Source of the DNA: Rhodopirellula sp. P2
GTDB taxonomy: Bacteria; Planctomycetota; Planctomycetia; Pirellulales; Pirellulaceae
Length of the DNA: 64,000 nucleotides
NCBI RefSeq assembly: GCF_028768465.1
Contig: NZ_CP118225.1
Span: 4,321,001 to 4,385,000 of the forward strand
Direction: 5' to 3'
Part shown: positions 35,891-60,050 of the stretch, in pieces
Layout of the letters: the number at the start of each line of letters is the position of its first letter
Position numbering within the stretch: the first letter of the stretch is position 1
Notes under the pieces: generated by a model
Told to the model about the DNA's origin: nothing
What the model saw: only the letters and a program-made list of their open reading frames with translations
The model's database searches: none
Position numbers and translations under genes: made by a program

Positions 35891-35952
35891 GTCAGCGTGT
35901 TGATTCAATCAGCCGGAACGCGATCGCGTCCGGTTCGTCTCTGGTAACCTGT

Positions 35953-36150
35953 TCGCCCCAACGGGGCAGCCCTATGACAGCCCTGGGTTCCGGCGGGACC
36001 AAGATTGCAAAGCCTCAACGGGGCGGTCCTAGCAGGGAGTCACCCAAAAACGCTAGGACCGCCCCGTTGGGGCTCGCGTTGGATCATCCGTAACGAAACC
36101 CCAGGTGATGCCTGGGGCTGGGATAGGGCTGCCCCGTTGGGGCGTGAGAC
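35953..36150 (-). repeat. Diverged copy of the GCCCCAACGGGGC-rich core
   Basis: Shares the segments GGGACCAAGATT, CGCTAGGACCGCCCC, CCGTAACGAAACCCCAGG and ATAGGGCTGCCCCGTTGGGG with the core of the 329-bp element at 58143-58471, in the opposite orientation. The terminal inverted repeats are absent here. Confidence 0.65.
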
Positions 36151-36225
36151 AGAGCCCAAACCAAGGCCGCATCGGCTTTGGCAGCCCTCAAATTTTCGCG
36201 GGCCAGTGTTGGTCCCGGTTGCAGT

Positions 36226-55529: not shown

Positions 55530-56091
55530 GGCACGCCGCACAACGATTTAGGATTTGGGGTCAGCGAGGTACGAGCCTGAACCTTAATCCTTGTTCAAGG
55601 CGAGTCGCTTCGCGGTGGGGACACTCCGGCGATTGTTCCCTCGTGGTTTTGTCCGCTGCGGCGTGCTCTGGCGGAGGGCTTCGTGCGAGGTTCGGTTCGG
55701 CGCGGTGGTTTGGGCAGCCGCTCTGGAAACGCAGAACGGTGTTTTGAATCGGGCAAGGGCGTTGATTGGCTGTTGGAATCGTGTGCCGGGATGCTTTTCG
55801 GGTCAGGTGATTGCGACGGGCGCGCAGGGGCAGCGGAGTCACCGATCAGATGACTTTGAAAACGACGTGTTATTGGAGCGACGATCTGGATCATGGCGGT
55901 GCTCTGGCTGGTTGTGGCGGAGTTGTCGTGGCGGGGTAAGCAGGTGTCATCGGGTAGGTGAGCCGTTGGCGTGAGCCACGGTTTTCACGCGCAGGCCAGG
56001 CGAACGCCCAAATGGCTCACATGGTTGTGCCCGATCATTCCAGCCGACCTGCTTAGTAGCCCAGGTTGATCATCGGGCCGCCGCAGCAGGG
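55530..56091. other. G-rich intergenic region with repeat copy
   Basis: About 560 bp; the plus strand is rich in G and T. It has no convincing gene and ends with a copy of the CGGCTCACATGG-type repeat (55993-56056). Confidence 0.5.
55993..56056 (+). repeat. CGGCTCACATGG repeat family, copy 2
   Basis: Contains AAATGGCTCACATGGTTGTG with the flanking GCGAACGCC of the family. Confidence 0.7.
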
Positions 56092-56715
56092 TCACTGCAT
56101 CGCGACCGGTTCCGCCATCACGATCTGCTGGCTGCAAGCCAGTTCGTACTGACGCTCCAGTGAGACAGCGACCAACCAGCGAACCTCTTCGAGGGATCGC
56201 TTGCTGCGCGCGTTGACGAATCCGTCGTGACGCACACGATGAAAGCCAGCCGGCAACACGTGCTGGAGCCAACGACGAATGAACTCTTCCACACGCATCG
56301 GCATCGGCTTGTACTGACGCGTTCCGCTGCGTTTGACTTGCAGCGTCAAGTAGGCTTCTTCGAGCGAAGTCAATTCGTCGCACTGCGTGACGCGTCGATT
56401 GGCCACCGCACCTCGCATCACGTAGGCCGCCAAGTACGCGACCGCGAATTCGCCGCTGCCGACCGCTTCGCTGTCGACGACAAAGCATACTTGCCAGGCA
56501 TCATCGAGGATCGAGTCAAAGAACGTTTCGGATCGCAGTTTGTGTTTCAACTTGCCGCGAAAAAACCTCTCCAGAATCTGCTCGGGCACGAACACGCTGG
56601 CGCGACTGCTTTGCCAAACGCCGCCAGCGTCGATGCCGCCGGCGGGAACCACGACGTGAACGTGCGGGTGGTAAACCAGGTCACGTCCCCATGTGTGCAG
56701 TACGCTATCGCAAGC
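56092..56715 (-). pseudogene. IS91-family transposase fragment
   Basis: The 3' part of a Y2 transposase. It retains the HUH motif (YHPHVHVVVPAGG) and a Tyr-containing segment like the Y2 site (AYLAAYVMRGAVANRR), but the N-terminal zinc-binding part is absent. In-frame homology begins near VLHTWGRDL (56703). The 5' end joins the truncated ParE-like gene, so this is the remnant of an insertion. It is not expected to be active. Confidence 0.75.
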
Positions 56716-56900
56716 TCCGGCACGCTGGTTGCAAATAGCCCGCCGCTTTTCGGGAACTGTGCCAACCCCTTGATCGTCTGTTCGGATCGCTCAAGAAATC
56801 GCAAAGCAGCATCAAGACTGCCGTCCGCAATGTGCATTGCGTGAGATTCGACATCCTCGATGGCTTGGGGCCGTCGGGTGATTTGCTTCCGGTTCGCCAC
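56706..56900 (-). pseudogene. Truncated ParE-like toxin
   Basis: From a GTG at 56900 the protein reads MANRKQITRRPQAIEDVESH, then LRFLERSEQTIKGLAQFPKS and GLFATSVPEL, a ParE-type toxin. After about 65 residues the frame runs into IS91 sequence, so the last third, which carries conserved toxin residues, is lost. It starts directly after the stop of the antitoxin gene. Confidence 0.72.
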
Positions 56901-57143
56901 TTACTTGACGCTCTTTGAACCAACGCGTTCCTTGATCGTCTGCCATTCTTCATCCGTCCACGGGTCGGCCGGACCACTATTTATCCCAGCCATCAATGCT
57001 TGCTCGATTTCGCATTGCTTCACGTTCGCTGCGGCGACTAACGCGATGATAAACTCACTCGGATTCGTAAATCCACCGTTCTTTGTGCCTTGATCCACAA
57101 ATTGCAGCAAATCATCTGGTAATTCGACTGGTATACTGGTCAT
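56901..57143 (-). CDS. ParD-like antitoxin
   Basis: 80 residues from the ATG at 57143, with ribosome-binding GAGG. The opening TSIPVELPDDLLQFVDQGTK and FTNPSEFIIALV form a ribbon-helix-helix DNA-binding module of the ParD/CopG type. Its toxin partner downstream is broken by the IS91 fragment. It may still act as a repressor. Confidence 0.78.
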   Translation of the reverse strand: MTSIPVELPDDLLQFVDQGTKNGGFTNPSEFIIALVAAANVKQCEIEQALMAGINSGPADPWTDEEWQTIKERVGSKSVK

Positions 57144-57805
57144 AGAAATAGACCTCAAACAATTGGTCCGCGACCGACAACATGGTTGGTGCGCAAGGGC
57201 CTGCGGCACACCTCCGATTTGGCGCAAACTGCGTTCGCATTGTACAATCAAAACTTGATCCAATCCACCTTCGCTTCGGTTGCGTCGGCGACGTAAATAC
57301 GTTCCGTTGTGCGGTCTGGCGAGGTGGAAGATGCAGTTCAATCGCATGGATTTGAAGGAGCGTTGGATCTGCGCCGATTCGTGTTTTCAAAATGTGTGCT
57401 GCGACGAACACTGATGTTCGCGAATCGAATGCTGATCCGAGGTTTGATCCTGCCGCCGAAATTGGTTTGCCCGCAAAGGACGTCCTGACATGCCTGCGTT
57501 GGTCAGTCAGCGACCACCATTGCTTCTGTTGTAGGGACGTGGCTGTCTGGTGTGCGGAAATTTTCGCGATGGCGATCGCTCGGTTGTTTCGCTCGTTGAA
57601 GCCACCACGAAATGGACGAACGACACGAAAGCGACCCTTGCTGAACTTTCGTGCGATTCGTGTCTTTCGTGGTTTCGACCTCCTCCGGGGTTGAGCGGTC
57701 AGCTTCGATGGTTCGCGGTCGTGGGGTTTGGCGAAGCAGGCCTGCAGGAGTCTTTGGGGAGGTGAGCGGTTCAAGCGTTCGCGCTGGTTACGCTCGAAAA
57801 CCGTG

Positions 57806-57855
57806 GCTAACGCCAAGCGGCTCACATGGTTGTTCCCAATCGTTCCTGCCAACCT
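57806..57855 (+). repeat. CGGCTCACATGG repeat family, copy 3 (empty site)
   Basis: GCTAACG followed directly by CCAAGCGGCTCACATGG; the uninterrupted target of the 329-bp element. Confidence 0.7.
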
Positions 57856-58142
57856 GGTTCGGGAGATTGCATTGCAGTTCAGGGGCTTCCACTTGGTGGA
57901 TGGTGAAGGCTCCGCTGTGGCGGTTATTCATTAACCACGAAATGGACGAACGACACGAGAACGACCCTTGCTGAACTTTTGTGTGATTCGTGTCTTTCGT
58001 GGTTTCGACCTCCCCCGGGGTTGAGCGGTCAGCTTCGATGGTTCGCGGTCGTGGGGTATGGGGAAGCAGGCCTGCAGGAGTCTTCGGGGAGGTGAGCGGT
58101 TCAAGCGTTCGCGCTGGTTGCGGTCGAAAACCGTGGCTAACG

Positions 58143-58471
58143 CTGGACTGTCAAAAGGTTGGTATTGACACGGAAAATGCGACGTTGATTTTTATTCTGT
58201 CCTACGCCCCAACGGGGCAGCTCTAAGATAGCCCCAGGCATCGCCTGGGGTTTCGTTACGGAGATTCCGACACCAGCCCCAACGGGGCGGCCCTAAGAAA
58301 GACTCCCCAAAACCCGCTAGGACCGCCCCCGTTGGGGCTTTGTAATCTTGGTCCCGCCACAACCCAGGGCGTTGCCCTGGGCTGGCATAGGGCTGCCCCG
58401 ATGGGGCGAAGTCGAGGAACGAAACCTGCGCAGTCCAAAGCGGTGTCAATACCAACCTTTTGACAGCCCAG
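58143..58471 (+). mobile_element. 329-bp MITE-like element, copy A
   Basis: Terminal inverted repeats of 24 bp are perfect (58148-58171 with 58443-58466), extending to about 29 bp with one mismatch. Flanks are GCTAACG (58136-58142) and GCGAACG (58472-58478), a likely 7-bp target duplication with one change. The interior holds GCCCCAACGGGGC-type palindromes and no ORF. The empty site is at 57806-57812. Confidence 0.8.
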
Positions 58472-58520
58472 GCGAACGCCAAGCGGCTCACATGGTTGTT
58501 CCCAATCGTTCCTGCCAACC
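58472..58520 (+). repeat. CGGCTCACATGG repeat family, copy 4
   Basis: Starts at the right target duplication GCGAACG and continues CCAAGCGGCTCACATGG. Confidence 0.7.
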
Positions 58521-58807
58521 TGGTTCGGAGATTGCAATCCAGTTCAGGGGCTTCCACTTGGTGGATGGTGAAGGCTCCGTTGTGGCGGCTATTCATTAAC
58601 CACGAAATGGACGAACGACACGAGAACGACCCTTGCTGAACTTTCGTGCGATTCGTGTCTTTCGTGGTTTCGACCTCCCCCGGGGTTGAGCGGTCAGCTT
58701 CGATGGTTCGCGGTCGTGGGGTATGGGGAAGCAGGCCTGCAGGAGTCTTCGGGGAGGTAAGCGATTTGGGCGTTCGCGCTGGTTGCGCTCGAAAACCGTG
58801 GCTAACG

Positions 58808-59136
58808 CTGGACTGTCAAAAGGTTGGTATTGACACGGAAAATGCGACGTTGATTTTTATTCTGTCCTACGCCCCAACGGGGCAGCTTTAAGATAGCCCC
58901 AGGCATCGCCTGGGGTTTCGTTACGGAGTTTCCGACACCAGCCCCAACGGGGCGGCCCTAAGAAAGACTCCCCAAAACCCGCTAGGACCGCCCCCGTTGG
59001 GGCTTTGTAATCTTGGTCCCGCCACAACCCAGGGCGTTGCCCTGGGCTGGCATAGGGCTGCCCCGTTGGGGCGAAGTCGAGGAACGAAACCTGCGCAGTC
59101 CAAAGCGGTGTCAATACCAACCTTTTGACAGCCCAG
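58808..59136 (+). mobile_element. 329-bp MITE-like element, copy B
   Basis: Identical in length and boundaries to copy A, offset by 665 bp. It most likely arose with the surrounding tandem duplication, not by a second insertion, since both flanks match. Confidence 0.8.
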
Positions 59137-59185
59137 GCGAACGCCAAGCGGCTCACATGGTTGTTTCCAATGGTTCCTGCCAACG
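59137..59185 (+). repeat. CGGCTCACATGG repeat family, copy 5
   Basis: GCGAACGCCAAGCGGCTCAC followed by ATGGTTGTTTCC; last copy of the array. Confidence 0.7.
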
Positions 59186-59507
59186 TGCTTCGGAGATTGC
59201 ATTGCAGTTCAGGGGCTTCCACTTGGTGGGTTGGTGAACACGCTGACGAACCAAGTGTTCGATGGTTGATCAAGTCACAGGTGCGTGGAACCAAGATTGG
59301 ATCCGGCCCGAGCGGTCGCCGCGTCCTGTTTCGGAAGTCGGCAATTGGCGTAAAGACTGGTAAGAAACAATTCAAATTCTGTTGCAATCGCGACGGCCCA
59401 ATTTGAAAGCTTCTTGATTGAAGGCCAGCAGACTGCACGTTGTTTTCAATGTTGACATGGGGCGTTCAACGCGTGGTGCACGCAGCTTACAAAGTTTGAT
59501 CGGCGCA

Positions 59508-59579: not shown

Positions 59580-60050
59580 TCAGCTGGCTTTGTAGGCATC
59601 GCGAAGATCGCGGATTTTGTCGTGGCCGGCTTTGACCTTGGCATATTGGGCGGTCAAGACATCGTTCATGGCGCTGCCTGCGGTGTCTTTCAAGACATCT
59701 TCGTAGGCTTCCTTGATGTGGTCCTCACCACGCTCAGCTTCGATCAAGATGACTGTTGCATCGCCGCCGTTGAGTTTGCCTCGGATGTTGATCCAAATGC
59801 GGTGCGTCTTGGCGGCAACACTGCCGTCGTCTTCGGCTTCTTTGCCGTTGAATTCGACGTACTGCTGCAGTTCGCTGGCCATCGCCGAACGTTCGTCGCC
59901 GATGCTGCGGAACAACGTTGCCAAACGCTCGTCCTTCAGTTCTTCTGCGGACTCGTGAAAGCCGTTGTACGAGTCGATGTTGGCACGAATCAGCTTTTGA
60001 AGCTTGTCGATGGTGGTTTCGTTCAAGTCGATTTTGGTTTCAAGAGACAT
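59580..60050 (-). CDS. PA2169/DUF2383-family four-helix-bundle protein
   Basis: 156 residues. The helical pattern ETTIDKLQKLIRANIDSYNG, then FHESAEELKDERLATLFRSI and ILIEAERGEDHIKEAYEDVL, is that of the PA2169/DUF2383 ferritin-like bundle. Members are stress-associated and of uncertain function; no clear metal-ligand set was assigned. It is followed by a strong terminator. Confidence 0.85.
   Translation of the reverse strand: MSLETKIDLNETTIDKLQKLIRANIDSYNGFHESAEELKDERLATLFRSIGDERSAMASELQQYVEFNGKEAEDDGSVAAKTHRIWINIRGKLNGGDATVILIEAERGEDHIKEAYEDVLKDTAGSAMNDVLTAQYAKVKAGHDKIRDLRDAYKAS

Follow-up and report, generated by a model that had tools for sequence, protein, structure and literature searches.

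Bacterial MITEs (miniature inverted-repeat elements) such as RUP, NEMIS, Nezha, Chunjie and QMITE2 are described as short elements that carry no transposase gene, have inverted ends and target duplications, and are mobilised by transposases that recognise those ends (PMC3733652, PMC10969869). A second group of relevance comprises insertion sequences (ISs), among them ISPsy8, ISPpu9, ISPpu10, ISRm22 and others, which insert into extragenic palindromes (REP; PMC1525189). A third is formed by the prokaryotic Mutator-like (p-MULT) elements, which are described with a D-D-E transposase with a C/D(2)H signature lying 11-19 residues after the second D (D2), a helical insert of 99-138, duplications of 8-9 bp and, in ISMich2, two ORFs that need a -1 frameshift (PMC3942029). 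Here, we describe an element of Rhodopirellula sp. P2 that resembles the listed MITEs in that it is short, with inverted ends and target duplications, and that departs from them in three respects: The libraries searched do not recognise its end family, it strongly prefers one palindromic repeat, and it belongs with several families that have similar ends and different palindromic interiors. We consider it very probable that the element is a non-autonomous DNA transposon (MITE) moved in trans by the transposase of a related IS family, with a preference for a palindromic target. Judged from its sequence, this 327-bp element is a true MITE, and the IS family to which it belongs targets palindromes and appears to be absent from the catalogues compared (Pfam, NCBIfam, PHROGs and PDB).

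The element occurs in a tandem array within the window, i.e., the whole analysed stretch of 64,000 nucleotides. Alignment of the three array units, all on the plus strand, placed an empty unit 1 of 330 bp at 57605-57934, a filled unit 2 of 665 bp at 57935-58599, and an incomplete, filled unit 3 at 58600-59227. The target 9-mer GGCTAACGC is present singly in unit 1 (57805-57813, plus strand), and the unit alignment and flank comparison identified it in unit 2 as the left copy of a 9-bp duplication (58135-58143, plus strand), of which the right copy, GGCGAACGC (58471-58479, plus strand), carries one mismatch. Between the two lies MITE copy 1 (58144-58470, plus strand; 327 bp by unit alignment and consensus). 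An inverted-repeat scan showed that its terminal repeats (58144-58171 on the plus and 58443-58470 on the minus strand) span 28 bp with 27/28 positions paired; the perfect 24-bp repeats at 58148-58171 and 58443-58466 that a sequence-only reading of this DNA had described are thus present and can be extended to 28 bp at the cost of one mismatch. The same reading had taken unit 1 to be a 330-bp unit without the element and unit 2 to measure 665 bp, which the alignment bears out, and had given the element as 329 bp and the target duplication as 7 bp, which the alignment corrects to 327 bp and 9 bp. Its length balance still closes, with the 1-bp deletion kept and the other terms replaced (330 - 1 + 327 + 9 = 665). 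The occurrence of filled and empty sites in one array likewise stands, with the addition of a second filled copy that had been overlooked: MITE copy 2, 327 bp, at 58809-59135 in unit 3 (plus strand; unit alignment), which differs from copy 1 at 3/327 positions. This copy has its own inverted-repeat pair (58809-58836 and 59108-59135; shuffled sequences gave 0 such matches) and is flanked by a duplication (58800-58808 and 59136-59144) with the same mismatch as that of copy 1.

By eye, two short adjacent ORFs beside the array (56547-57140, minus strand) resemble a ParE/ParD toxin-antitoxin pair, for which Pfam gave no match at E 0.001. A DUF2383 gene also adjoins the array (59580-60050, minus strand). 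Beside the same gene in the related genome G006 (L174), the sequence aligns for ~90 bp past the gene and then diverges, with no aligned array, and another end-related element lies in that region. Among the loci fetched for other comparisons, a clean filled/empty pair between species was not found.

We searched the element's own genome, a single contig of 7,291,416 bases, with a 319-base element query. This yielded 24 full copies at 98-100% identity, in which at most one base of the query is left uncovered, together with 10 diverged or truncated ones of 250-309 bp (85-99%), besides shorter pieces. Among the 23 ungapped copies, pairwise identity averages 98.4% and never falls below 95.7%, and the copies differ from their consensus at 0-8 positions, which suggests a fairly recent spread of the MITE. 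The sequence-only reading had seen no ORF in the element; the 327-bp consensus stays free of stop codons for at most 92 codons, on the minus strand. The sequence-only reading had reckoned with the possibility that the ends occur nowhere else or never with a flanking duplication: The 23-bp end sequence in fact matched 53 places in the genome at ≤3 mismatches (reversed-pattern control, 0), and perfect 9-bp duplications were found at a good part of the copies (see below). Comparison of the two lists placed all 53 end matches inside MITE copies, and therefore no full IS with ends that close (23-bp end, ≤3 mismatches) is present in this genome.

To describe the insertion sites, 30 copies were fetched with their flanks, of which 28 had both ends and were kept (L029 and L030 were dropped). 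The 9-mers on the two sides were identical in 13/28 copies and differed by one mismatch in 5, two in 3, three in 3, five in 1, and six in 3, such that 10/28 copies had at least two mismatches; by eye, the six-mismatch copies L005 and L012 are one base out of register. At eight shifted control offsets no perfect pair was found, and a single mismatch occurred in one copy each at -1 and +1. The target 9-mers themselves vary (GGCTAACGC, GCGTTAGCC, CACCAAGCC, GGCTTGCCC, GCGCAAGCC and GGCTAACTC). At 12/28 insertions, at least 20 positions matched a 28-nt target repeat with the 9-mer in a fixed register, where this consensus was built from the flanks of these same copies; none of ~20,000 random window positions reached 20 (largest, 17), and the window's own two copies score just 17/28. 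An uninterrupted copy of the target repeat, with ≤5 mismatches to the 28-nt consensus, lies in the window at 55993-56020 (plus strand), and by eye the sequence flanking L029 on the right shows the repeat as two facing arms of ~70 bp in all. The insertion into palindromes is akin to that of the REP-targeting ISs named above, a likeness of target, and differs from it in that the target here is common to the MITE and a related IS. The strong choice of one base within a palindrome, by an IS and its satellites, makes palindrome finding by a transposase directly testable.

Some of the duplications share further features. Four copies (L001, L011, L015, L019) show the same change, with GGCTAACGC on the left and GGCGAACGC on the right; L001 and L011 are those of the window array, L015 and L019 lie elsewhere in the genome, and a copy in the related genome G009 (L163) has the same left/right change. 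This may have come about, for instance, through conversion between target repeats. In the right flanks of L008, L012 and L023, a MITE-end-like sequence (TGG(G/A)CTG...) directly follows the right duplication copy, a layout that would result if the MITE had entered a duplication left by an earlier insertion.

Matches to the element were also found beyond its own genome. Some match was present in 19/60 related genomes (own included), and a looser end pattern matched in 8/13 genomes of the genus. Among the matches listed in related genomes, many are interior pieces, G009 has full-length copies at 95-98%, and G003, G004 and G006 have long, more diverged copies. Reading some of the matched places revealed sister MITE families with similar ends, 9-bp duplications and other palindromes inside: a 296-bp MITE in G005, with a perfect 9-bp duplication in 4/4 distinct copies read; a 308-bp MITE in G000 and G009 (3/3); and a 293-bp MITE in G010 (2/6). 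The right flank of one G000 MITE (L019) aligns with a G006 contig (L162) at 79.6% over 1,147 bp, and another end-related element lies close by on that contig, in what may possibly be a shared hot spot. In plasmids, the search for the MITE gave one 49-base interior match, and the strict end pattern gave 0 stretches in general genome contigs, a set from which near genomes may be left out. The reading of the element as a MITE moved in trans makes the origin and spread of several dispersed repeat families in these genomes open to test. In the literature as far as it was covered, ISfinder lying outside this comparison, we found no paper that combines Rhodopirellula with miniature inverted-repeat elements and nothing on the 327-bp MITE.

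The interior of the element is itself palindromic, and this raises the question of whether the copies might be a dispersed palindromic repeat of the REP/BIME kind, multiplied through recombination or the action of a REP-associated Y1 transposase, with the ends being incidental. Facing palindromes do form the interior: The single-strand DNA of the element folds far better than its shuffles (z -11.25, 0/100), the window contains 8 instances of the GCCCCAACGGGGC core, three of which lie between 35955 and 36143 (none in 100 shuffles of the window), and the core 13-mer occurs 58 + 60 = 118 times in the genome (reversed control, 0). Interior pieces that have no ends exist as well. The core at 35953, which the sequence-only reading had reported without inverted repeats, is indeed there; it looks, however, like part of a decayed, truncated element and not like an independent core, since 35952-36172 (minus strand) matches element positions 30-263 at 75%. 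Against this explanation stand the sharp boundaries and the 9-bp duplications at many different sites, as well as ends that are common to families with other interiors. Duplications of 9 bp at sharp boundaries are not expected from Y1 transposition or recombination, and they largely refute this explanation already, which we regard as very unlikely. It is also unlikely, though slightly less so, that units 2 and 3 of the array received their elements independently. In favour of this, the target acts as a hot spot, and neighbouring insertions are seen elsewhere: In G009 (L081), the 327-bp and the 308-bp MITE lie side by side across one 9-bp target, and G010 (L183) has a similar layout with two mismatches at the far side. 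Yet the two window copies have the same orientation, and because both inserts share the same mismatched duplication and are only 3 differences apart, a single insertion, after which the filled unit was duplicated, appears the likeliest origin of units 2 and 3.

Which enzyme would move the MITE is a question on which the rival readings lie closer together. The candidate partner came to light once a more permissive end pattern was applied to the genus genomes and an ORF start next to a G010 end was traced back to the MITE's own genome. In G010, an end matching that of the MITE at 26/30 positions (left end; 0/200,000 shuffles reach this) is present in five copies; an ORF start follows in four of them, which all break off in the assembly at an identical base (three at contig ends, one at a gap), and the fifth diverges after 55 bp. 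The G010 stretch has one more counterpart in the MITE's own genome (75% over 71 bases). There, a 1,690-bp IS at 6370169-6371858 is flanked on both sides by GCGTTAGCC, a perfect 9-bp duplication, and sits in the same target repeat as the MITE. Its ends match those of the MITE at 20/30 and 19/30 positions, which 1 and 3 of 200,000 shuffles reach, compared with 5, 4 and 7 matching bases for three IS4-type ends; more distant IS ends score 16/30 (G023; 336/200,000 shuffles) and 13/25 (Nostoc; 2,552/200,000). G010 contigs that start with the other IS end show the same kind of target, and across the contig breaks L164 would pair with L238 (GGACAGTCC) and L158 with L234 (CGCTAGCGC). The proposal of the sequence-only reading of a MITE that needs a transposase in trans is supported; where it had suggested looking for a full-length, transposase-bearing relative with the same ends, the related IS has ends that are similar and not identical. 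That the ends of the MITE are closer to those of the G010 IS than to those of the own IS, and that the own genome holds a single copy of the related transposase, leaves some room for a different mobiliser, unfound so far, with better ends, either lost or residing in a mobile pool, in which case the own IS would merely belong to the same end superfamily. We rate this as possible, on the weaker side. A lost member of the same family would be a variant of the main reading rather than a different mechanism, and four other transposase profiles, which do not represent all families, gave no partner: PF13808 was not found in the own genome, PF01609 gave 8 places there with inverted repeats that differ from those of the MITE, PF00872 occurred in 5/13 genus genomes (own not included) with no MITE-like ends found by script, and PF13737 occurred in 7/80 relatives, none of them in the genus.

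Under the favoured reading of a MITE moved in trans, the transposase would recognise the ~28-bp ends TGG(G/A)CTG..AAA...TTGGT.TTGACAC and insert the element at cuts staggered by 9 bases, which would leave the 9-bp duplications. Its insertions would often fall at a fixed position within palindromic repeats of the type GGGGC(T/G)AACGCCC, and the enzyme would come from the own IS or from a closer relative such as that of G010. Clusters of interior repeats are seen as well; at 947244-947973 of the own genome, four GCCCCAACGGGGC cores exactly 239 bp apart form a tandem array of the interior palindrome, with a fifth at 948738, and contig C7 of G005 has clustered matches to the repeat interior at ~170900-182200, probably palindromic-core arrays. 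Rfam returned one chance-level match for the element.

A broader version of this reading, about which we are evenly divided, is that an uncatalogued IS family of planctomycetes, cyanobacteria, Thiodictyon and Persicobacter has several satellites, of which the MITE is one. The pattern of its transposase, D-69/73-D-24-D(2)H-~200-E, lies beyond the p-MULT spacing described above, and orfA and orfB would meet at a poly-A slippage site. In planctomycetes, this enzyme would choose palindromic repeats and insert at a single base within them, so that repeat-in-repeat structures arise, in which a MITE with palindromes of its own interrupts another palindrome. In the own IS, orfA has 78 codons and orfB, which follows an A9 run in the -1 frame, has 455. 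Relatives of the transposase were found in 8/80 related genomes (own included), in Rubripirellula obstinata (61%), and in 11 and 10 of 72,556 plasmid records (Nostoc, Gloeothece, Calothrix, Thiodictyon, Persicobacter). The plasmid relatives found are annotated "hypothetical protein," save for one Persicobacter record without a feature under the match, and the findings thus point to a widespread putative transposase family behind that label. No relatives were found in viral contigs, and there was no match in phages. At 5/7 plasmid loci read (from six records), we found inverted ends starting TAGG and exact 9-bp duplications (mispaired control, 0/42); L242 and L248 had no such ends or duplication, nor did a wider search around L248 reveal any. 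Of the planctomycete loci inspected, 4/13 had a 9-bp duplication (L199, L221 with weak ends, L224 and L235), and the other 9/13, some of them cut or broken, had none.

OrfB and 15 relatives had no credible match in Pfam or NCBIfam, where hits at E ≤0.1 were scattered over coiled-coil and other models, with 0.0032 for two members (IS5 model) and 0.0061 for one (IS6 model). PHROGs and PDB likewise gave nothing credible, and a single-sequence structure model was unusable (mean pLDDT 38.8). Upon alignment of the 16 sequences, the first two D residues were present in 16/16, as was the H of the D(2)H motif, whose D is E in one; the E was present in all 14 aligned sequences that reach it. The first two D residues are 69 or 73 apart, D(2)H lies at +24 residues from D2, and D2 and E are separated by 198-203 residues in 13/14 and by 261 in one. 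From the conserved D, D, D(2)H and E, we infer a DDE-type enzyme. It shares with p-MULT the D(2)H signature and the 9-bp duplications, and differs from that account in the placement of D(2)H 24 residues after D2 (versus 11-19), in a D2-E distance of ~200 (versus a helical insert of 99-138) and in ends that start TGG/TAGG, which we count as a further difference. For the p-MULT families, the 16 members gave no Pfam or NCBIfam match at E 0.1. With both spacing and sequence comparison negative, the transposase is therefore not filed in p-MULT. In hhalign, five IS256-type proteins scored a probability of 1.2%, in a nonsignificant match that nonetheless had the two D residues and H in register, and the IS4-type scored 0.1%.

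The joining of orfA and orfB would, to judge from the A run, occur by transcriptional slippage. In the seven two-ORF members, the overlap always contains an A6-A9 run, and the frame change is -1 in four and +1 in three, which rules out that a -1 shift is always needed. In L242 and L246, the orfA-like and orfB-like parts are fused in one ORF.
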